64,000 bases of DNA from Microcella alkalica (GTDB lineage Bacteria > Actinomycetota > Actinomycetes > Actinomycetales > Microbacteriaceae), in the NCBI RefSeq assembly GCF_014137945.1, contig NZ_JACGWX010000005.1:62001-126000 (forward strand). The letters are read 5' to 3'. The notes under the pieces were generated by a model that saw nothing but the letters and a program-made list of their open reading frames with translations, did no database searches and had not been told where the DNA came from. The position numbers and the translations under genes are program-made. Shown piece after piece: positions 19,580-28,852 of this stretch (its first letter is position 1; the number at the start of each line of letters is the position of its first letter).

Positions 19580-20274
19580 TGCGCGTCGGCGTCATCACCT
19601 TCCCCGGCTCGCTCGACGACCGGGACGCCATGCGGGCGATCCGCCTCGCGGGCGCCGAGCCCGTCGCCCTCTGGCACGGCGAGCACGACCTCCACGGTGT
19701 CGACGCGATCGTGCTGCCGGGCGGCTTCAGCTACGGCGACTACCTGCGGTGCGGCGCGATCGCGGCCCGCTCGCCGATCATGGCTGAGGTGGTCGACGCC
19801 GCGAACGGCGGGATGCCCGTGCTCGGCATCTGCAACGGCTTCCAGATCCTCGTCGAGACGCACCTGCTGCCGGGCGGGCTGATCCGCAACGATCACGGCG
19901 ACTTCATCCGCCGCGACCAGCGCCTGCGCGTGGAATCGACCGATTCCGCCTGGACGAACGGCTTCACCGCCGGCCAGGAGATCACCATCCCGCTGAAGAA
20001 CGGCGAGGGCGGGTACATCGCCGACGAGTCCACGCTCGACCGCCTCGAGGGCGAGGGCCTCGTCGCCTTCCGCTACCTCGACGTGAACCCCAACGGCTCG
20101 CTGCGCGACATCGCGGGTCTGCGCAACGAGCGCGGCAACGTCGTCGGCCTCATGCCGCACCCCGAGCACGCCGTCGAGCCGGGCTTCGGCCCCGACACCC
20201 GCGACGCGATGCGCTCGGGCGTGGACGGCCTGACGTTCTTCACATCGGTGCTGAAGTCGAGCGTGCTGAGCTAG
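19579..20274 (+). CDS. purQ: FGAM synthase glutaminase subunit PurQ
   Basis: Class I glutaminase (231 aa) supplying ammonia to PurL. Catalytic Cys in [10 protein letters not shown], oxyanion strand [13 protein letters not shown], and His/Glu in MPHPEHAVE. The last 24 codons plus the stop are duplicated 4.4 kb downstream (24596-24669), showing that an accessory cassette was inserted at this 3' end while leaving purQ intact. In the uninterrupted arrangement the next gene would be the DUF3817 gene (stop-to-start gap of 4 nt at the far copy). Confidence 0.97.
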
Positions 20275-20275
20275 C
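20202..20275 (+). repeat. Left copy of 74-bp direct repeat (purQ 3' end)
   Basis: Identical to 24596-24669 at 72 of 74 positions (differences at 20235 G/C and 20257 T/G). It covers the last 24 purQ codons, the TAG and one further base. Together the copies bracket the low-GC restriction-modification cassette, as attachment sites or a long target duplication would. Confidence 0.9.
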
Positions 20276-20389
20276 TCACTGGGCCGGCAGCGCGTGGGCT
20301 AACCCGAATGTCTGTTCGAGCTGTTAGCCTCGCCTCGTGGTCGCTACCGTGACCGTCAGATCTCGACTCGTTGCACCCGCGGCGCTGAA

Positions 20390-21520
20390 ATGGATGGAAC
20401 CTTGGGCAGCCAGATCCCCATCATTGACCTTTTTTCCGGGGCAGGAGGCCTCGGACTCGGTGCCAAGCAGGCGGGCGGAAGCCTCGTCCTCTCCATGGAC
20501 AATGACCGGTTCGCGCATTCCACGATGGTCGCGAATCCATCACTTCATGGTGGGATCGCGACGCTTGCCGACGTGACCGCCGTCCGCGGCAGCGACCTCC
20601 GGGCTATGGCCGGTATCGGTCGAGGGGACGATCTGATTGTGGTGGGCGGTGCCCCCTGCCAACCCTTCAGCAAGGCGGCCTACTGGCTCGATGAGGGAAA
20701 GGATGCCGCTTACCGTCGCGCCAGGGCTCGGGGAGAAGTAGCCGCCCGGCCGGACGAGCCCACTGAGGCTCGTCCAGACGAGCGCCGCACTCTCGTGTCG
20801 GAGTACTGGAGGCTCGTTTCTGAGTCCAACGCGAGTGGATTTATTTTCGAGAATGTCCCGAGCATTCTCCATCCCAGAAATCGTCCGGTTTTCGACGCAC
20901 TGTATGCGCAAGCACAGGCCTCCGGCTATCACCTCACGCGCGTAGTTGCGAAAGCAACTGAGTTCGGGGTCGCCCAGTCAAGACAGCGGGTTTTCCTGCT
21001 CGGTTCGCGGTACGCGCAGCCAGTCCCCCCGTCTCCAACTCACTCGAACACTGATCCAACTCTCCCGAGTTTCGTAACGGCGGGACAGGCCATCGGCCAT
21101 CTGGACACAATCGATCGACACGAGCCAGAAGAGGTGGTCAAGGGGACCTGGGCAGAACATCTTGCAGAAATCCCGCCGGGGATGAACTACAAGCATCACA
21201 CCGCCTGGGCTGGCCACCCGCACCCGACCTTCGTGACCGAAACGCGGTACTGGAACTTTCTTCTCAAGCTGTCGCCCGATAAGCCGTCCTGGACCATTCC
21301 AGCGAGCCCCGGCCCCTGGACCGGACCCTTCCACTGGACAGGACGGCGACTGCGTACCGTCGAATTAGCTGTATTACAGGGCTTCCCCGAAGACTACGTA
21401 TTCAGCGGTTCTCGTCGGGAACGCGTTCGGCAGATTGGAAACGCCGTGCCCGCACCAATGGCACGTGCAATGGCGCAGTCAGTGTTGCGTACGTTCACGA
21501 CTAGCGCCCTCGCAGCATGA
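20390..21520 (+). CDS. DNA (cytosine-5) methyltransferase 1 of the RM cassette
   Basis: A 376-aa m5C methyltransferase using S-adenosylmethionine. Motif I DLFSGAGGLGLG (residues ~13-24), motif IV GGAPCQPFSKA with catalytic Cys90, motif VI FENVPS (~153-158), motif VIII QSRQRVFLLG, and motif X RQIGNAVPAPMA are all intact. The target-recognition region lies between VIII and X (YWNFLLKLSPDKPSWTI). A TAGCCT -10-like box at 20325-20330 would give a 5' leader of about 53 nt. ATG overlaps nothing upstream; its TGA overlaps the start of the second methyltransferase (ATGA). Confidence 0.95.
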   Translation: MDGTLGSQIPIIDLFSGAGGLGLGAKQAGGSLVLSMDNDRFAHSTMVANPSLHGGIATLADVTAVRGSDLRAMAGIGRGDDLIVVGGAPCQPFSKAAYWLDEGKDAAYRRARARGEVAARPDEPTEARPDERRTLVSEYWRLVSESNASGFIFENVPSILHPRNRPVFDALYAQAQASGYHLTRVVAKATEFGVAQSRQRVFLLGSRYAQPVPPSPTHSNTDPTLPSFVTAGQAIGHLDTIDRHEPEEVVKGTWAEHLAEIPPGMNYKHHTAWAGHPHPTFVTETRYWNFLLKLSPDKPSWTIPASPGPWTGPFHWTGRRLRTVELAVLQGFPEDYVFSGSRRERVRQIGNAVPAPMARAMAQSVLRTFTTSALAA

Positions 21521-22593
21521 CGCCGCGACTGAAGGCCGTCAGCCTCTTCTCTGGTTGCGGCGGTCTCGACCTCGGTATCGAAGACGCGGGCTTTGAGATG
21601 GCGCTTGGAACCGACTCCGATCCCTGGGCCGCGAAGAGTCACCAGGCGAACTTTCCGGGCAGCAAGTTCTTCACTGGATCGATAGAAGACTTCAGTCAGG
21701 AACGAGCAGCCGAGACCGCTGGCCAGGACCTGAAAGACATTGATCTGCTTGTTGGTGGTCCTCCCTGTCCGCCATTCTCGAAAAGCCGTTTCTATCGGAC
21801 CGAGATGCCCAGAGCGATGGAAGATCCAGTCGGGGAAGTGACGATCAACGGCTACCTTCGCACTCTTTCTTGGCTCCTGCCCCGGGCTTTTCTTCTGGAG
21901 AACGTTGCAGGGATGGCCTTCAATGTGCACCGTCCAACGCTGGATTACATCAAATCCACAGCGGAGGGTCTTGGTTACACATGCGAGTGGCGCGTGCTTA
22001 ATGCCGCAGATTTTGGTGTTCCGCAGATTCGCCAGCGCTTCTTCCTAGTTGGTATCCGGGACGGCTCGTTCAGTTGGCCCGAACCTACCCATGTCGATCC
22101 GAAGAAGGAGGCCGACGGCCTTTTGCCCTGGGCGACAGCTGGAGAGGCCATCAGCGATCTGGACACGGAAGAGAACGCAAACGACGCAGGGCATGTTGCT
22201 GGAGGAAAATACAACCACCTCCTCCGACAAATCCCCCCGGGCGACAATTACCTGTTCTTCACCAAGGAAAGAGGCCACCCGAGCCCTGAGTTTGGCTGGC
22301 GCAAGAGGTACTGGTCGTTCCTTCTGAAGCTCAGCCCCGATCTTCCGTCATGGACCATCCAAGCTCGCCGCTCCAACAACATGGGTCCTTTGCATTGGCG
22401 AAGCCGGATTCTTCGCATCGACGAGGTCAAACGTCTCCAGACTTTCCCTGACGATTGGCATCTCGAAGGCACGATCGAGAGGCAGTGGAGGCAAATCGGC
22501 AACGCGGTCCCGCCTCGGCTGGCGCTCGCTCTCGGCTCTCAGTTGCGCGACGCCCTAGCAATACGTGAAGATGACTTAAGTCGGGTCGCATAG
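21517..22593 (+). CDS. DNA (cytosine-5) methyltransferase 2 of the RM cassette
   Basis: A 358-aa m5C methyltransferase. Motif I SLFSGCGGLDLG, motif IV GGPPCPPFSKS with catalytic Cys84, motif VI LLENVAG (~126-132), motif VIII PQIRQRFFLVG, motif X RQIGNAVPPRLA. The recognition region (RYWSFLLKLSPDLPSWTI ... GPLHW) resembles that of the first enzyme closely, so the two are paralogous and probably recognise the same or complementary sequence. Two methyltransferases with one nuclease is the usual set-up for an asymmetric target, each modifying one strand (inference). Coupled to the upstream gene. Confidence 0.95.
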   Translation: MTPRLKAVSLFSGCGGLDLGIEDAGFEMALGTDSDPWAAKSHQANFPGSKFFTGSIEDFSQERAAETAGQDLKDIDLLVGGPPCPPFSKSRFYRTEMPRAMEDPVGEVTINGYLRTLSWLLPRAFLLENVAGMAFNVHRPTLDYIKSTAEGLGYTCEWRVLNAADFGVPQIRQRFFLVGIRDGSFSWPEPTHVDPKKEADGLLPWATAGEAISDLDTEENANDAGHVAGGKYNHLLRQIPPGDNYLFFTKERGHPSPEFGWRKRYWSFLLKLSPDLPSWTIQARRSNNMGPLHWRSRILRIDEVKRLQTFPDDWHLEGTIERQWRQIGNAVPPRLALALGSQLRDALAIREDDLSRVA

Positions 22594-22622
22594 GCGCATC
22601 CGGCTTCCGACGGAAGGCGCAT

Positions 22623-23627
22623 GTGGTTGACCGATTGAGCTCACGCGAGCTGCGCGAAAGATTCTTCTCGGCCCTAGAGAATTCCGGCGTTGAGATCGTG
22701 CATCTCACTGCTCCCTCGGAAAAGCCCATCCGCGTCGCACTCTCCGCTGGAACCTTCGGGGAGCCCGTTGTCTTTCGCGTCTTCCTGTGGAATATCACAC
22801 ATGGCGGAGCGACCCGCAGCGAAGATGAGTTCCGAATTCAGTTGACAGGCAGCCTTCCAGATGACGTCGCCGGCGAGACGACGATCGTACTCGGCTGGAG
22901 TCCAGCATTTGAGGTTTTTGCGGGTTGGTCGGCCAGGGATCATCAAAACCGCGTCTCGCGGTCTCCTTCCTTGCAGGTTAAGAAGACCACCCTTGTGGCG
23001 GCGTACGACCTGGGCCTAGCAGCGGCCTCACGGGGCGGAGGCGACGTCGTTGTTGCTTTGAAACCTGAGCTCCTCGCGGCCTACCTCGTGAACGCAGACA
23101 AACTGCACATGGCCGATCCAGAGGAAGTCTTGGCCGAGATCGAACTCATCACGCCGGCTTCCAATGTGCCTGAGCCAGGTGCGCCGATGACTCCGTCGCC
23201 GTGGGTCCGGCCGACACACGTGCGGGAGATAGCCGTCCAACTGAGGGCATGGGATTTCTCGAAGCGAGTGCTAGACGCCTACGATCACGGCTGCTGTATC
23301 TGCGGTATCGAACTGATGGTCATCGAAGCTGCTCACATTGTGCCCGTCGCCTGGCCGGGAAGCACCGATGAGACTTCGAATGGCCTGGCACTTTGCGCCG
23401 TTCACCACAAGGCGTACGACAAGAAGTTAATCAGCGTGAATCCTGACTACACCGTTGCCGTCTCTGCTAACCGCCTTTCCCAATTACGGGCGCTCAACAG
23501 ATCCGCAGGGGAAGACGAGTTGATACAACTCGACGGCGCTCCGTTGCTTCGCATTCCCGCCGCAACCGAGGATCGGCCAACTCCTGCAAACCTTCTGCTA
23601 GGTCAGGTGGCGCGGAACTGGGACTAG
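22623..23627 (+). CDS. HNH restriction endonuclease of the RM cassette
   Basis: A 334-aa protein, GTG start with GGAAGG 5 nt upstream, 29 bp after the second methyltransferase. The C-terminal HNH domain has a zinc knuckle (CCICG, residues 224-228), the catalytic stretch IEAAHIVPVAW (His238), NGLALCAVHHKAYD (Asn253, Cys258, His261/262). The N-terminal ~190 residues, with LGWSPAFEVFAGW and SPSLQVKK, resemble the DNA/methylation-sensing half of HNH restriction proteins. Given its place after two m5C methyltransferases it is most likely the restriction subunit. Its TAG stop is part of the CTAG target of the IS element inserted directly behind it. Confidence 0.85.
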   Translation: MVDRLSSRELRERFFSALENSGVEIVHLTAPSEKPIRVALSAGTFGEPVVFRVFLWNITHGGATRSEDEFRIQLTGSLPDDVAGETTIVLGWSPAFEVFAGWSARDHQNRVSRSPSLQVKKTTLVAAYDLGLAAASRGGGDVVVALKPELLAAYLVNADKLHMADPEEVLAEIELITPASNVPEPGAPMTPSPWVRPTHVREIAVQLRAWDFSKRVLDAYDHGCCICGIELMVIEAAHIVPVAWPGSTDETSNGLALCAVHHKAYDKKLISVNPDYTVAVSANRLSQLRALNRSAGEDELIQLDGAPLLRIPAATEDRPTPANLLLGQVARNWD

Positions 23628-24566
23628 GGCGTGTCTCGTAACCTCTGCGGGATGTTGCGGCAGGCTGGGAGCGTGACGCGTACTCGTACTTTGTCGGATT
23701 CTGCTTGGGCTCGGATCGAGCCTTTGATGCCGATCGCTTCCCGCAAGGGCGGGCGACCGTTTCAGGAGCATCGTCGGGTGCTGGAGGGGATCGTGTGGCG
23801 GTATCGGACGGGTTCGCCGTGGCGTGATCTGCCCGCCGAGTTCGGGCCGTGGCAGACCGCGTGGAAGCGTCATCGCCGGTTCAGCGGAGACGGCACTTGG
23901 GATCGTATCTACGCCGAGATCCTCGCTGACGCGGACGCAGCGGGCGAGATCGAATGGGCCGTCAGCGTGGACTCCACCATCAACCGTGCGCATCAGCACG
24001 CAACGAACCTCCCGCGCGACACAGGGGGCTCTATCGAGTTACAAGAATTTGCGGGAGGAGCCGCCTGACCACGCGATTGGCAGGTCACGCGGAGGGTTGA
24101 GCACGAAGATCCACCACCTCGTCGACGGCCGCGGGCTACCGCTGGTCGTGCTGGTCGGCCCCGGGCAGGCCGGCGATGCCCCGATGTTCCCCGTGCTCAT
24201 GGACCACCTCAAAGTTGGCCGGCGTGGCCCGGGCAGGCCCCGCTCGAGACCGGACCGCGTCCGCGGCGACAAGGCGTATTCCTCGCGTGCCATCCGCACC
24301 CGCCTGCGCGAACGCGGGATCGTCGCCGTGATCCCCGAGCCCTCCGACCAGCAGGGACACCGGCAGCGTCGCGGCTCCCGTGGCGGGCGACCAGTCAGCT
24401 ACGACGTCGAGGACTACAAGGGTCGCAACGTTGTCGAACGCGGCTTCAACGAAGACAAGCAATGGCGTGGGCTCGCCACCAGATACGACAAACTCGCGCT
24501 CACCTACCGCGGCGGCGCGGTCCTGCGAGCCATCACACTCTGGCTCAAACGCTTAGGAGACACGCC
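23628..24566 (+). mobile_element. IS5-family (IS427-like) insertion sequence
   Basis: A 939-bp element. Left end GGCGTGTCTCgTAAcC and right end (reverse complement) GGCGTGTCTCcTAAgC form terminal inverted repeats of about 11 exact bases with further matches. It is flanked by the 4-bp direct repeat CTAG (23624-23627 and 24567-24570), the target preference of IS5 relatives. The left CTAG contains the HNH gene stop; the right CTAG supplies the stop of the transposase frame. Transposase is in two overlapping frames. Codon use matches the high-GC host rather than the cassette it interrupts. Confidence 0.92.
23673..24068 (+). CDS. IS5-family transposase, N-terminal frame
   Basis: Encodes the N-terminal part of the transposase: LSDSAWARIEPLMP, GRPFQEHRRVLEGIVWRYRTG, PWRDLPAEFGPW and the first catalytic Asp in SVDSTINRAHQHA. 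GTG 23673 is the likely start; the open frame reaches back to 23631. The frame ends at 24068 and the rest of the protein continues in the +1 frame, so either programmed frameshifting near 24030-24065 joins them or the copy is broken. Confidence 0.85.
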   Translation: MTRTRTLSDSAWARIEPLMPIASRKGGRPFQEHRRVLEGIVWRYRTGSPWRDLPAEFGPWQTAWKRHRRFSGDGTWDRIYAEILADADAAGEIEWAVSVDSTINRAHQHATNLPRDTGGSIELQEFAGGAA

Positions 24567-24570
24567 CTAG
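24037..24570 (+). CDS. IS5-family transposase, C-terminal frame
   Basis: Continues the transposase in the +1 frame: HAIGRSRGGLSTKIHHLVDG, the second catalytic Asp in RVRGDKAYSS, IPEPSDQQGHRQRRGSRGGR, and the catalytic Glu in NVVERGFNEDKQW before GLATRYDKLALTYRGG. No independent start is evident, so it is probably expressed by frameshifting from the first frame. The TAG stop lies in the target-site duplication, outside the element itself. Coordinates mark where similarity to the family resumes. Confidence 0.8.
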   Translation, partial: SYKNLREEPPDHAIGRSRGGLSTKIHHLVDGRGLPLVVLVGPGQAGDAPMFPVLMDHLKVGRRGPGRPRSRPDRVRGDKAYSSRAIRTRLRERGIVAVIPEPSDQQGHRQRRGSRGGRPVSYDVEDYKGRNVVERGFNEDKQWRGLATRYDKLALTYRGGAVLRAITLWLKRLGDTP

Positions 24571-24595
24571 CTCCAACTTCTCACCGATTTCGGCA

Positions 24596-24669
24596 CGACG
24601 CGATGCGCTCGGGCGTGGACGGCCTGACCTTCTTCACATCGGTGCTGAAGGCGAGCGTGCTGAGCTAGC
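24596..24669 (+). repeat. Right copy of 74-bp direct repeat (displaced purQ 3' end)
   Basis: Second copy of the purQ tail (see 20202-20275). It still reads in frame as a PurQ C-terminus with one substitution (LKASVLS instead of LKSSVLS) and is followed after 4 nt by the DUF3817 gene. This copy therefore probably marks the original chromosomal junction, while the left copy keeps purQ functional. Confidence 0.9.
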
Positions 24670-25417: not shown

Positions 25418-26536
25418 CTAACTCTCGGTTTCGTTGACTCGAAGCGATACAAAGAGGTCGGGTACGCCAAAGGTGTGCTGTGCCCGGTCATGTTGGATTC
25501 GCCCAGCGATGATCCCAGGGTGCACACCCAATTCCGTAGCTAGCTTCTTCGCGTCCGAATAGTTGCTCACCGCTTCCAGCTTCGAGTGAGCGGACGGAGG
25601 GATCAGCGTGTTCCCTGCGAAGTCGTTTGCTTCTTTTTCCTGTTTCGCTCTACCACCGTCGGCGCCGAGCCTATTCTCAACGAAAACTTCCTTCTTCCCG
25701 TGGAGCAGAACGTGTCCAAGCTCGTGGAACAGCGCAAACCACAGGTGGTCGTTGCGCTTATGCCGAACACTCAATTGAACAAGGGCTTTCGTGGGAGACA
25801 GCCAGCGTGTTGCTCCGTGCGCTCGAGCCCCTGTAACTTCCGGCACGAGCACGACCGCCACACCAGCGTTGGCGCAGATCTCCACAACTCTTGGCCAGAA
25901 TTCCACTGGGGCTAGCACAGTGAGTTCTCGGAGCTCCGGGATCGCAGCCCTCAGTCGCGCCTTGTCGAAGGGCGCGGTTTCTACTTCCTTTGCAGCTTGC
26001 TCGCCAAGACGCAACCAGGCCGCAACCGCGCCTGGATCTGCCTTGAAAGCTGATGATTGCAAGAACGCCGCCGAGGGCTTCGCCCAAGCTTCCTCCCATG
26101 CATCGATCGAGGACACACCGAAGAATTGGAGAATCTCCTGAAGCAGCGTGCCGGGATCGTGCAGAGTCGCGGTCACTACCCCCCTCTTTCGGAGTGCTGC
26201 GACGGGCATGTGTCGCAGCCATTCCTTGGAAGCAGACAGCGACTCGCGTTCGGAGGTTCGCGAGAGGGCATCACGGTAGTTCGCTTCGAGCGTGTTCCAC
26301 ACTTTCGCGGGTACGCCAGTTGCCCGCTCGAGTTTGATGGCGGTTTCATGGGTCAACGCGGCGGCGCCGCTGACAATCTGGTTTATGTGCTTGATCGATA
26401 GTCCTGTCCGCGTGGCGAGATCGGTCTGTGACAGGGGGAGGGCGTCCAAGGTTTCTCGCAACGTGGCCCCTGGTGAGCTCACCTGGTCTGGCGCGTATGG
26501 CGTCCAATTTGCGTCGGTTCGAGATGCGGTAGTCAT
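25418..26536 (-). CDS. HigA-type antitoxin fused to an ImmA/IrrE metallopeptidase
   Basis: A 372-aa two-domain regulator. Residues ~20-80 form a HigA/XRE helix-turn-helix (LSQTDLATRTGLSIKHINQIVSG). Residues ~205-330 form an ImmA/IrrE-type zinc peptidase with HELGH at 271-275 and a downstream EKEANDFAGNTLIP. Expected to neutralise the preceding HigB-like toxin and bind its promoter; the peptidase may cleave a regulator after a stress signal (family knowledge). Starts 18 bp after the toxin stop. Lower GC than surrounding housekeeping genes; divergent from the ubiquitin-like operon. Confidence 0.9.
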   Translation of the reverse strand: MTTASRTDANWTPYAPDQVSSPGATLRETLDALPLSQTDLATRTGLSIKHINQIVSGAAALTHETAIKLERATGVPAKVWNTLEANYRDALSRTSERESLSASKEWLRHMPVAALRKRGVVTATLHDPGTLLQEILQFFGVSSIDAWEEAWAKPSAAFLQSSAFKADPGAVAAWLRLGEQAAKEVETAPFDKARLRAAIPELRELTVLAPVEFWPRVVEICANAGVAVVLVPEVTGARAHGATRWLSPTKALVQLSVRHKRNDHLWFALFHELGHVLLHGKKEVFVENRLGADGGRAKQEKEANDFAGNTLIPPSAHSKLEAVSNYSDAKKLATELGVHPGIIAGRIQHDRAQHTFGVPDLFVSLRVNETES

Positions 26537-26554
26537 CGTGTATCCCAGCTCCGT

Positions 26555-26890
26555 CTAGTGGGTGTCTGCGATCTCGAGCACGCGTACGCGCGTGACGAGG
26601 GTGAGGTCAATGCCGCCGTCGGCTAGACGAGGCATCGGGGTTGTGGCTGCTTCAAAGATCAGCCGGTACGGGCCGTCGAGGTCAGCCGAGAACTGTTCAT
26701 CCCTGTCTCCGGTGAGTTGGTGACATCGGGCCTGCGGCAGCTTGTGGAACTCCGCGAGATTGTCCGAGGCGACCAGCTGATCCAGTCGCATCAGAACCTT
26801 GTCGGCTCGTTCCTGCCCAAGCTTCCGGGCTCGCAAGGAGGCGCTGTTGCACATGCGTGCGAGTCGTGAGTTGGCGAAGCCGACGTCCAT
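26555..26890 (-). CDS. HigB-like toxin (RelE/ParE superfamily)
   Basis: A 111-aa protein with the HigB pattern: FANSRLARMCNS, LGQERADKVLMRLDQLVASDNLAEF, ARCHQLTGDRDEQFSADLDGPYRLIFE and a C-terminal VRVLEIADTH. In the family it acts as a ribosome-dependent mRNA interferase. ATG 26890 is chosen because GGAGG lies 5 nt upstream; an ATG 4 codons earlier (26902) is less well placed. Toxin-first order with the HigA-ImmA gene downstream is the usual HigBA arrangement. Confidence 0.85.
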   Translation of the reverse strand: MDVGFANSRLARMCNSASLRARKLGQERADKVLMRLDQLVASDNLAEFHKLPQARCHQLTGDRDEQFSADLDGPYRLIFEAATTPMPRLADGGIDLTLVTRVRVLEIADTH

Positions 26891-26910
26891 GTCGACCTCC
26901 AATAATCATA

Positions 26911-26953
26911 CACCAAGTAGGTGTGCTAGAATGTTTGATGTACCAAGTCGGTC
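26911..26953. promoter_or_regulatory. Paired operator-like boxes between toxin-antitoxin and ubiquitin-like operons
   Basis: ACACCAAGTAGGTGT has 5-bp inverted arms (ACACC/GGTGT) around AAGTA. A related box, TACCAAGTCGGTCT, follows about 30 bp to the right, sharing ACCAAGTnGGT. Minus-strand TATGAT (26905-26910) is a good -10 for the toxin operon, and plus-strand TAGAAT (26927-26932), between the boxes, is a candidate -10 for the rightward operon. The HigA-type protein is the obvious candidate ligand (inference). Confidence 0.5.
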
Positions 26954-26995
26954 TGAAAAATACTTCCGGCTTCGCCCGGAGAAGGGTTGCACCTC

Positions 26996-27295
26996 ATGAG
27001 TAACACTATTTCAGCAGACCAGGCTGACTCCCGCGCCGCGTCGGCGGGCAAGCCTCAGAGGAGCTACGAGATCGCTGTCAACGGAGAGCTGTCCGAGGTT
27101 CAGAACGAGCGCATGACTTTCGATCAGGTCGTGGCGATCGCCTACCCGGTTCCGCCTGGCCCTGACACCGTCTACACCGTCACCTTCCGTGGCGCTAAGG
27201 GGCGCCATCACGAAGGAGAACTGGCGGCCGGCGAATCCGTGATCGTGAAGAAGAAGGGCACGGCGTTCGATGTCACGCCTACGGGAAAGTCCTAG
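26996..27295 (+). CDS. Ubiquitin-like (multiubiquitin-family) modifier protein
   Basis: A 99-aa protein; a ~22-residue flexible N-terminus is followed by one beta-grasp domain: RSYEIAVNGEL, RMTFDQVVAIAYPVPPG, TVYTVTFRGA, GELAAGESVIVKKKGTAFDV. This is the strand-strand-helix-strand-strand pattern of the bacterial multiubiquitin family. The tail ends VTPTGKS, so a Gly is two residues from the end and trimming would be needed to expose it. ATG 26996 is preceded by GAAGGG at 9 nt. It overlaps the E1-like gene by 26 bp. Expected to be adenylated and attached to a target by its neighbours (inference from gene context). Confidence 0.8.
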   Translation: MSNTISADQADSRAASAGKPQRSYEIAVNGELSEVQNERMTFDQVVAIAYPVPPGPDTVYTVTFRGAKGRHHEGELAAGESVIVKKKGTAFDVTPTGKS

Positions 27296-28445
27296 CCCCG
27301 ATCTCGCGAGGCTCGTCGCGGACGGATACGAAGTATCGATTCGCCATGGGCACCTCGTGATCAGCAATGTTCCCTACCTGACTGCAGCGGGCGATATCGC
27401 GAAGGGTGAGGTGGTTTCCGAGCTCAACGTCAGCGGTGACACCACCGTGCCGCCCGAACCTCATACCGTCTACTTCACCGGAGTGCCACACAAGGCAGCA
27501 AGCGTTCCGGTGGACGAAATACTCGCCGGTACGGGCACCCAGGAGCCAATCCCGGGGCTCTTCGCCGAATCATATTTATCGACGAAGCCGGCCAGTGGCC
27601 ATTATGCCGACTACTACGAGAAGATCTCTCAGTATGTTCGGGTGATCGCCGGGTATGCCAGAACGGTAGATCCCCGAGCTACCGCCCGCACATTTCGCCC
27701 TATCGAGACGGAAGACGACGAGTCCCCGTTCGTGTACCTGGACTCGGCCTCAGCACGCGCCGGCATCAGCGCGCTCAGCATGCGACTGGCCGCTGGGCCG
27801 ATCGGCATCATCGGCCTCGGGGGGAGTGGTTCCTACATCCTCGACCTCGTGTCCAAGACACCCGTCCCAGAAATCCACCTCTGGGATCCCGACGACTTCC
27901 TCACGCACAACGCATTCAGGGCGCCGGGTGCCGCTAGCCTGGCTCAGTTGAGCGAGAGGCCGACCAAGGTTGAGTACTTTGCCTCGCAATACTCCGCCGT
28001 GCACCGCGGAATCGTGGCTCACCCGGAGATGATCGATAACAGCACGCTGGAGCGCCTCGACGGACTGCACTTCGTATTCGTAGCGATCGATACAAGCCCT
28101 CTCAAGCGGGAGATCATTCTGTGGCTGACGAAACACGGCATCCCGATCATCGACGTGGGAATGGGTGTCATTCGGCAGCAGGACGCGCTCGGCGGGATCG
28201 TGCGCACCACCACTGTCACCCCGGCCGACCACGCGCACGTGGAGCGAAGGATTTCATTCACTGACGAACGCGAAGACGAGTACGAGCGGAACATCCAGCT
28301 GGCTGATCTGAACGCACTGAATGCTGCCATCGCCGTGATCAAGTGGAAGAAGCTCATGGGGTTCTACCGCGACGACCTCAAGGAGCTTCACACGACCTAT
28401 ACGATCGCCACCGGACAGCTGATCCATTCGGAAAAACCCTCATGA
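27270..28445 (+). CDS. DUF6791-ThiF E1-like adenylyltransferase
   Basis: A 391-aa activating-enzyme homologue. Residues ~1-165 match the DUF6791 region preceding such E1s (VISNVPYLTAAGDIAKGEVVS, HTVYFTG, STKPASGHYADYYEKI, VYLDSASARAGI). Residues ~175-391 are the ThiF/E1 fold: nucleotide loop GIIGLGGSGSYILDLV (179-194), acidic strand LWDPDDFLTHNAFRAPG (204-220), FVAIDTSP, and IDVGMGV. NIQLADLNALNAAIAVIKWKK closes the domain. The whole protein contains no cysteine, so a classical E1-thioester cannot form on it. Start overlaps the modifier gene; its TGA overlaps the DUF6527 ATG. Confidence 0.88.
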   Translation: MSRLRESPSPDLARLVADGYEVSIRHGHLVISNVPYLTAAGDIAKGEVVSELNVSGDTTVPPEPHTVYFTGVPHKAASVPVDEILAGTGTQEPIPGLFAESYLSTKPASGHYADYYEKISQYVRVIAGYARTVDPRATARTFRPIETEDDESPFVYLDSASARAGISALSMRLAAGPIGIIGLGGSGSYILDLVSKTPVPEIHLWDPDDFLTHNAFRAPGAASLAQLSERPTKVEYFASQYSAVHRGIVAHPEMIDNSTLERLDGLHFVFVAIDTSPLKREIILWLTKHGIPIIDVGMGVIRQQDALGGIVRTTTVTPADHAHVERRISFTDEREDEYERNIQLADLNALNAAIAVIKWKKLMGFYRDDLKELHTTYTIATGQLIHSEKPS

Positions 28446-28852
28446 GTCAGCATCACTTCGACGCGGAAATCGTCGAGACGATCCCGGCAGTCCGCGACCC
28501 CGGCGTGTTGTACATCTCGTTCGCACATCGAACGGCTGTGCACACCTGCGCCTGCGGGTGCGGGAATAAGGTCGTGACCCCATTGAATCCATCCGCATGG
28601 AGTGTCCGGATGGCCGGCTCCGCAGCAACACTTCACCCTTCGATCGGCAACTGGGGATTCACCTGCCGCTCTCACTACTTGATTCAGAACGGTCAAGTTG
28701 TGTGGGCAAAGGACTGGACGAGCGATGAGGTGAGCCACGGCGCAAACCGTGACCAGCGCGACCGACGCGAATACTTCACCTCCCGGACGTTGCGCGGGCG
28801 GGTCTCAAAGTTCCTCCGAGCTATGCGCGACCTGATTTGGCTGCGTAGGTGA
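28442..28852 (+). CDS. DUF6527 family protein of the ubiquitin-like operon
   Basis: A 136-aa protein. Key residues are HTCACGCG (34-41; possible metal-binding or disulfide cluster), VVTPLNPSAW, LHPSIGNWGFTCRSHY (64-79) and VVWAKDW, the conserved core of DUF6527. In related bacterial conjugation operons this family is thought to act as the modifier-processing peptidase; I recall this but cannot verify it here. The invariant Ser and His in PSIGNW/CRSHY would suit a catalytic pair (inference). Basic C-terminal tail (SKFLRAMRDLIWLRR). Coupled to the E1 gene by ATGA overlap and last gene of the operon. Confidence 0.8.
   Translation: MSQHHFDAEIVETIPAVRDPGVLYISFAHRTAVHTCACGCGNKVVTPLNPSAWSVRMAGSAATLHPSIGNWGFTCRSHYLIQNGQVVWAKDWTSDEVSHGANRDQRDRREYFTSRTLRGRVSKFLRAMRDLIWLRR

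Follow-up and report, generated by a model that had tools for sequence, protein, structure and literature searches.

Type II cyclic oligonucleotide-based anti-phage signalling systems (CBASS) carry an E2 with a catalytic cysteine and a JAB peptidase. The closest solved relative of the operon studied here is the Bub system of Citrobacter (BubA, BubB and BubCD; PDB 9ea4, 9ea5, 9ea8, 9eae and 9eav), in which we take BubA to be a Multi_ubiq-family member and, from its name and from earlier work, BubB to be the E2. Bub operons are described as complete with an E1, an E2 and a protease in the accessible part of PMC12687455, and phage protection has not been demonstrated for Bub (PMC13373217). Bil (BilABCD) is an anti-phage system that is also a bacterial ubiquitin-like conjugation operon. 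Its E2, BilB, has a catalytic cysteine and its BilC is a JAB protein (PMC11354881, accessible part). Here we describe an operon of Microcella alkalica that, unlike Bil, has neither a detectable E2 nor a JAB and encodes a cysteine-free E1. Its three overlapping genes, for a Multi_ubiq modifier, a DUF6791-ThiF E1-like enzyme and a DUF6527 protein, lie in a stretch of 64,000 nucleotides (contig NZ_JACGWX010000005.1, positions 62,001 to 126,000), the whole of which we call the window.

A survey from 2006 (PMC1779556) lists, in its accessible part, an operon type 6e with a subset in which the E1 is fused to an unnamed 'domain X' that replaces JAB. The subset resembles the window operon in its 1-3 beta-grasp modifier, its non-JAB N-terminal E1 domain, its small metal-binding protein with paired Cys/His and its optional E2. 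The metal-binding motif differs: C-x3-C-x35-38-H-x2-C there, C-x3-C-x34-C-x2-H here. Matched by description, the window family is very probably this domain-X subset, with domain X presumably corresponding to DUF6791 and protein Y to DUF6527. The window system belongs to a class that is known but has been little described. The literature that we searched, which did not reach the full texts of Ye et al. 2026 and Gong et al. 2025, holds no account of a DUF6791-ThiF E1 and no paper that mentions DUF6527.

We read the operon as a mobile Bub-like (bacterial ubiquitination-like) operon of an E2-less DUF6791-E1 class. Together with the mechanism and regulation proposed below, we consider this reading probable.

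Three overlapping genes and no detectable E2

All three genes lie on the forward strand. The first (26996..27295) encodes a modifier of 99 amino acids with one Multi_ubiq domain (Pfam PF14452, E=4.4e-15, 56.1 bits against a cut-off of 24.5); it ends in VTPTGKS and lacks a diglycine. The second (27270..28445) encodes the E1-like enzyme of 391 amino acids, with an N-terminal DUF6791 domain (PF20590, E=7.7e-44) and a C-terminal ThiF/E1 adenylation domain. The ThiF match stays below the Pfam threshold (E=2e-5, 24.3 bits, cut-off 28.1), yet the assignment is upheld by a PDB profile search (BubCD, E=1.1e-11) and by Foldseek. The third gene (28442..28852) encodes a DUF6527 protein of 136 amino acids (PF20137, E=1.1e-23). 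Modifier and E1 genes overlap by 26 bp, E1 and DUF6527 genes by 4 bp, and a purine-rich, ribosome-binding-like stretch (judged by eye) precedes the first ATG at 26996. Coordinates and profiles thus agree with the initial annotation, which had described three overlapping genes of these families and a single-domain modifier.

Databases say little about the three proteins. The E1 passes the equivalog cut-off of NCBIfam PRK06153.1-4 (NF004805; 460.9 against 352 bits), a family named 'hypothetical protein' there with no function stated. Its matches to the PADLOC E1-E2 models are weak (best E=7.2e-4), and neither PADLOC nor NCBIfam has a name for the modifier or the DUF6527 protein. Multi_ubiq and DUF6791 each match once in the window's genome, both times in this operon.

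The initial annotation had noted that related operons usually carry an E2, with which the accessible parts of PMC4963859 and PMC12687455 agree, and that neither an E2 nor a JAB is encoded nearby. The latter holds as well: no E2 or JAB was found among the seven proteins scanned with Pfam (the operon and four left neighbours; the right neighbour purL was judged by eye and left unscanned), and a home-made E2 profile found nothing at E<0.5. An E2 hidden as a fusion to the modifier was rejected, since the protein has 99 amino acids and one Multi_ubiq domain; such fusions do occur in a JAB-bearing class (L131, L139). An overlooked gene between the three was rejected too, as the junctions overlap or sit within 5 bases.

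The E2-less layout is the rule of the class

The missing E2 had been taken as the mark of a stripped-down system. This view is not supported, as the same layout is the norm of the class. All 41 DUF6791-E1 loci that are not cut by a contig end read Multi_ubiq, DUF6791-ThiF, DUF6527 with no detectable E2. They occur in Actinomycetota, Pseudomonadota, Cyanobacteriota, Bacteroidota and Bacillota, in metagenome-assembled genomes labelled Nitrospira and Dehalococcoidia, and on two viral contigs. The E2-less layout is the rule for the DUF6791-E1 class, common to many bacterial groups and not an oddity.

The 41 loci are the window, 21 plasmid loci, seven genome contigs, three loci from a genome search, the two viral contigs and seven loci from a Pseudomonadota sample. 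L026 and L133, 99.8% identical, count as two. The plasmid loci are those opened from 114 matching plasmid records, and all 21 read multiubiquitin, ThiF, DUF6527; among the unopened records H110, H119 and H120 have split or partial E1 matches. Excluded as cut by contig ends are L134, L009, L013, L035 (the same as L039) and L042; L043 is the contig of L036. Flanks were covered up to 6 kb in genome and viral contigs, 4 kb in plasmids and about 1.5 kb in L010-L012. In the Arthrobacter locus L024, where the genes are annotated as hypothetical only, the three were identified by sequence, and the L029 modifier was identified by annotation.

Among the 32 loci measured (L017, L026 and L029 by annotation), 29 have a modifier/E1 overlap of 26 bp and three have one of 41 bp; because the overlap recurs across loci, it is not due to chance. 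The three loci with 41 bp are alphaproteobacterial (L031, L032, L033); they have the tail motif F-R-V, not F-[DN]-V, and an E1 start shifted upstream. Of all 41 modifier open reading frames (ORFs), 22 have at most 110 amino acids when the longest ORF is taken (for L002 this probably places the start too far upstream). Modifiers with a single domain are therefore nothing unusual.

An E2, where found, accompanies another, JAB-like E1 class. Multi_ubiq matches at E<=0.001 in 15 of 398 Pseudomonadota genomes, 13 of them above the family cut-off. Of the 15, eight (L006's genome among them) have an uncut DUF6791-type operon, another has its operon truncated at a contig end, and in six the E1 is of a different kind, so that our own sample holds eight E2-less against six other operons. 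Pfam matches Prok-JAB in four of the five other-class E1s scanned (L141 was left out), two of them above the cut-off, and not in L135; all six show a JAMM-like pattern, H-x-H...S-x-x-D. Four of these six E1s have an E2 beside them and none of the DUF6791 E1s has a detectable one. L131 and L139 have the E2 as a fusion with the modifier, L138 as a separate gene (Prok-E2_E). These three E2s make up our home-made profile, which also found the E2 of L140 (E=5.5e-21). In L135 the profile match is non-significant (E=0.81) with a small ORF at the expected place, and L141 likewise has no significant match. Run against 7743 ORFs from 110 loci, many of them from phages, the profile found nothing at E<0.5 in DUF6791-type loci.

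Alternatively, an E2 could be supplied in trans from another locus of the cell. A genome-wide search of 11 genomes for PF14462 and PF14461 was silent; it covered these two families only, and the control genomes were silent too, which leaves room for such a supply. Against it, the operon is a self-contained block in several phyla and on many plasmids, with Multi_ubiq and DUF6791 present once in this genome. A mobile system that depends on the E2s of unrelated hosts is improbable, and we judge a supply in trans to be quite unlikely.

Two side observations concern other conjugation genes. In the JAB-type operons L138 (1943-3451) and L140 (4740-6233) a kinase-like gene with TCAD9/APH matches lies close to the E1. 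On a viral contig of 143 kb (L038:5003-6822) an E2-like ORF (E=1.3e-8) stands directly upstream of a ThiF-like ORF (E=8.7e-16), possibly a phage-borne ubiquitin-like pathway.

The E1 has a conserved tyrosine and no conserved cysteine

Citrobacter BubCD, already the best hit in the PDB profile search, is also the first-ranked Foldseek match of the E1 (E=2.7e-12, 17% identity); UBA5, MccB, ThiF and MoeB follow lower down. The AlphaFold model, built from 11 sequences, has a mean predicted local distance difference test score (pLDDT) of 80.9; block means are 84-95 for residues 11-130, and the linker at 143-165 is poorly predicted. G182, G184, G185, G187, D206, R217 and K233 are present in all 42 E1s aligned and D274 in 40; we take these residues to form the adenylation and nucleotide site.

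No alignment column has cysteine in more than 29 of the 42 E1s, and the E1s of the window, L002 and L010 have no cysteine at all. A thioester E1 with a conserved cysteine was rejected on this ground. Tyr338 (codon 28281..28283, forward strand) is present in 41 of the 42; the exception, L029, has a tyrosine one residue later. HHalign (probability 99.1) places Y338 on a tyrosine shared by all six JAB-type E1s. The tyrosine aligned to Y338 is BubC Tyr370, because the chain of PDB 9eav and the D104A chain differ by Y to F exactly there. The title of 9eav names a D104A/Y370F mutant with BubB and BubA(155-229), and in the PDB alignments the residue changed in D104A is the aspartate of the JAMM motif.

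The operon is like Bub in its BubC-type E1 with the conserved tyrosine (Y338/Tyr370), in its Multi_ubiq-type modifier and in the CapH/CapP- or CapW-type regulators close by in many relatives. It is unlike Bub in having no detectable E2 and in having DUF6791 in place of the JAB of BubCD.

The modifier ends in serine

All 41 modifiers of the DUF6791 class end in serine and none ends in glycine. Thr occupies position -4 in 37 of them and Ser in three, and Val occupies position -7 in 38. The overlap by itself does not account for the terminal serine, which is retained in the three 41-bp loci despite their different overlap. A weak PDB match of the modifier (E=0.47), the multi-ubiquitin domain protein of chain 9cd2, also ends in serine.

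The tail bears on a different view of the E1, namely that it activates the modifier as ThiF and MoeB do with ThiS and MoaD, for small-molecule or sulphur-carrier chemistry with no protein conjugation. The lack of a glycine-terminated modifier speaks against this. So do the 21 plasmid neighbourhoods, where no rhodanese or sulphur-carrier partner is named, the defence-type regulators and the fact that the best relative of the E1 is the Bub E1. Even with MoeB, ThiF and MccB among the fold matches and no E2 present, we regard such chemistry as very improbable.

DUF6791 has invariant His and Ser residues

DUF6791 spans residues 10-159 of the E1 by its Pfam limits (27297..27746, forward strand). His65 (codon 27462-27464), Gly71, Pro73, Ser104 (27579-27581) and Tyr122 are invariant in the 42 E1s and Lys106 (27585-27587) is present in 41. 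As for a deconjugating protease, Pfam finds no JAB, and DUF6791 with its invariant His/Ser pair is a candidate. In their abstract, Ye et al. 2026 reportedly describe a novel family of Ser-His proteases from Bub operons, and oxyester rather than thioester intermediates in Bub, with which a cysteine-free E1 would be consistent. The conserved residues would fit an identity of DUF6791 with that family. For the domain that replaces JAB, the accessible part of the 2006 survey (PMC1779556) mentions conserved charged residues and suggests a JAB-like action.

DUF6791 may do even more and stand in for two components of Bub operons at once, the E2 and the JAB. As a Ser-His(-Lys) acyl-transferase it would take the Ser-terminated modifier from the tyrosine oxyester of the E1 on the same polypeptide, and then ligate it to targets or hydrolyse it off. 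We offer this idea tentatively and would not bet on it. If true, the enzyme would be a one-enzyme ubiquitin-like ligase free of cysteine chemistry.

The DUF6527 protein

The DUF6527 protein has a beta domain rich in Cys and His (C36, C38, C40, C75, H78), followed by two C-terminal helices, the last of them cationic and probably amphipathic. Eleven residues are invariant in 34 aligned operon-type proteins, among them C36, C40, C75 and H78; C38 is present in all but L010, which has Ser. When phage versions are added (44 sequences), C36, C38 and C40 are invariant and C75 is not. AlphaFold (44 sequences) predicts a compact beta domain and the two helices with a pLDDT of 92. In the PDB, Foldseek finds nothing at E<=0.001 (best E=1.2), which leaves the treble-clef fold suggested in 2006 without confirmation or disproof. 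Of 32 proteins tested, 17 have a C-terminal stretch that is more amphipathic than its own shuffles (p<0.1; about three expected), and in 31 of the 32 the best C-terminal segment has a net positive charge. The L021 protein (86 amino acids) was excluded from this tail test.

DUF6527 relatives also occur in phages. Those listed from phage contigs end right after the beta domain, except the operon-bearing ones. In 55 of 59 viral loci the stretch covered shows neither an E1 nor a modifier match; the relatives in these loci (contigs L040-L096) mostly have about 90-100 amino acids, and the neighbourhoods of 12 such loci are varied. Viral DUF6527 is possibly a phage counter-measure or has an unrelated phage function.

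Could DUF6527 be the missing transfer factor, a disguised E2 or E3 whose clustered cysteine (C38) takes the modifier from the E1 and passes it to targets? It is present in all 41 uncut operons, keeps C38 in the phage versions, has more Cys and His than one zinc needs and forms a compact domain with no PDB fold match. However, DUF6527-like proteins also occur in the E2-bearing JAB-type operons L131, L138, L139 and L140. Together with the viral loci this means that replacing an E2 cannot be the general job of DUF6527, and the candidate cysteine itself is Ser in L010. A transfer role for DUF6527 is therefore unlikely in our view.

A mobile cassette with a divergent gene pair

The operon belongs to a larger conserved block, which includes a divergent gene pair on the reverse strand (25418-26902) that is absent from the initial annotation. 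Next to the operon lies a HigB-like toxin gene (26555..26902; Pfam E=4e-5, 24.4 bits, below the cut-off of 27). Beyond it lies a gene (25418..26536) for a HigA-like helix-turn-helix (HTH) domain fused to an M78 (ImmA/IrrE) peptidase, which is probably a regulator (PADLOC PD-Lambda-2_B 6.6e-36 and capP 1.7e-8; NCBIfam antidote_HigA 7.9e-14). Pair and operon share a divergent promoter region of 93 bp (26903..26995), a putative operator. It contains the element ACACC-N5-GGTGT at 26910-26924, conserved in the Arthrobacter and Cryobacterium relatives (three loci), and ACC-N5-GGT at 26942-26952.

The block aligns with Arthrobacter ruber at 77% DNA identity from 25437 to 28801 and with Cryobacterium in two pieces; the E1s are 83% and 55% identical to that of the window. 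Both relatives (L002, L003) have the HigB/HTH-M78 pair placed alike. The pair is in the same place on the Streptomyces plasmid L021, with a weaker HigB match (6.6e-7), and on the Micrococcus plasmid L023, as an annotated RelE/ParE gene and an HTH-M78 match (3.1e-27).

The cassette is a horizontally acquired insertion. Its GC content is 60% against 71-72% around it, and in a genome of the same genus (G020) the 3750 bp that the window has between 25194 and 28945 correspond to 178 bp. DUF6791 was found in two of 60 relatives and three of 396 genomes of the phylum, the window's genome counted in both, and in none of 25 other genomes of the genus.

The pair resembles PD-lambda-2, which the accessible part of PMC9519451 describes as an abortive defence system of a HigB-like protein, a HigA-like HTH-peptidase fusion and a third part. 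Here the HigB-like gene (below its cut-off) and the fusion would be components A and B. The pair differs in facing a ubiquitin-like operon; the third component, P4 phage antitoxin-like in PD-lambda-2, was not looked for. Conceivably, the three genes are cargo of a toxin-antitoxin (TA) unit that alone provides phage defence or maintenance. The PD-Lambda-2_B match fits this idea. So does the accessible part of PMC4963859, according to which 70% of PF14452 proteins adjoin potential TA loci with a DUF955 component and stabilisation is suggested. Yet the same three genes have WYL, separate HTH and ImmA, CopG or MarR genes upstream in other relatives. Among the 21 plasmid loci there are separate HTH and ImmA genes in seven, WYL in two and a window-like HTH-ImmA fusion in two, and the rest differ. 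CapH with CapP, and CapW, are known beside Bub operons. As the upstream genes vary, the three genes do not need HigB, and we give the cargo idea a small chance.

Further observations concern the surroundings of the cassette (purQ, purL and DUF3817 are names that we assigned by eye). Between DUF3817 and purL, the site of the window cassette and perhaps an insertion hotspot, another genome of the genus, G002 (L149:2778-5221), carries different DNA of about 2.4 kb. To the left, a direct repeat of 74 bp (72/74 identical) from the 3' end of purQ, at 20202-20275 and 24596-24669, flanks a module (20276-24595) with two cytosine-methylase-like ORFs, an MTaX1-HNH gene and an IS-like transposase (by eye). 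This module is probably a separate insertion at the end of purQ. It includes a restriction-modification-like set (20390-23627): a methylase named by eye and unscanned (20390-21520), a C5 DNA methylase (21517-22593, Pfam 3e-57) and an MTaX1 and HNH_2 protein (22623-23627).

A proposed mechanism without E2

Judged from its sequence, the operon seems capable of conjugating a small ubiquitin-like protein to targets in the absence of the usual E2. In the mechanism that we propose, the ThiF domain would adenylate the C-terminal serine carboxylate of the modifier. The modifier would then move to Tyr338 of the E1 as an oxyester, because a cysteine-free E1 cannot form a thioester. It would reach its target without a dedicated E2, either directly from the E1 or via Ser104 of DUF6791. 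DUF6791, in the place of JAB, would serve as a Ser-His hydrolase to trim the modifier or take it off. DUF6527 may tether or direct the reaction, using its Cys/His domain together with an amphipathic C-terminal helix that probably binds a membrane or a partner. The divergent HTH-peptidase, which is CapH/CapP- and PD-lambda-2B-like, would repress the operon until stress or DNA damage relieves the repression.

Several points weigh against our reading. The literature searched reports no activity for any DUF6791-type system, and the order 'multiubiquitin; E2; E1; metal binding protein' is called typical in the accessible part of PMC4963859. An unlinked, diverged E2 elsewhere in the genome is conceivable. 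The match of Tyr338 to Tyr370 adjoins an alignment gap and draws on a PDB title and chain. The Ser-His reading of DUF6791 draws on the invariance of the two residues and on what the abstract of Ye et al. 2026 reportedly describes. By sequence, the PDB profile search finds no solved structure for DUF6791, and none of the 50 Foldseek matches listed is to DUF6791 alone. The terminal serine is not shared by the whole wider family: among the unfused JAB-type modifiers it is present in L135 and L141 and absent from L138 and L140. An HTH-M78 protein also occurs in the JAB-type operon L140 (E=1.2e-73), so this protein is not peculiar to the DUF6791 class. Finally, 17 of 32 tails at p<0.1 suggest an amphipathic helix but fall short of proving it.

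New here are the terminal serine of the modifier, the alignment of Tyr338 in a cysteine-free E1, the invariant His65 and Ser104, the HigB/HTH-peptidase pair that travels with the operon in actinobacterial relatives, the missing PDB fold match of DUF6527 and its C-terminal, often amphipathic helix. Tyr338, Ser104, His65 and the terminal serine are also the residues that make the mechanism testable.

The missing E2 becomes a question for the whole family: in several phyla and on many plasmids there is no detectable E2, no conserved E1 cysteine and a modifier that ends in serine. The interest of the putative system lies in how it would pass on its modifier with neither an E2 nor a conserved cysteine. 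If the DUF6791-type system does conjugate, transfer from E1 to target would need no E2, which would bear on the origin of ubiquitin cascades.

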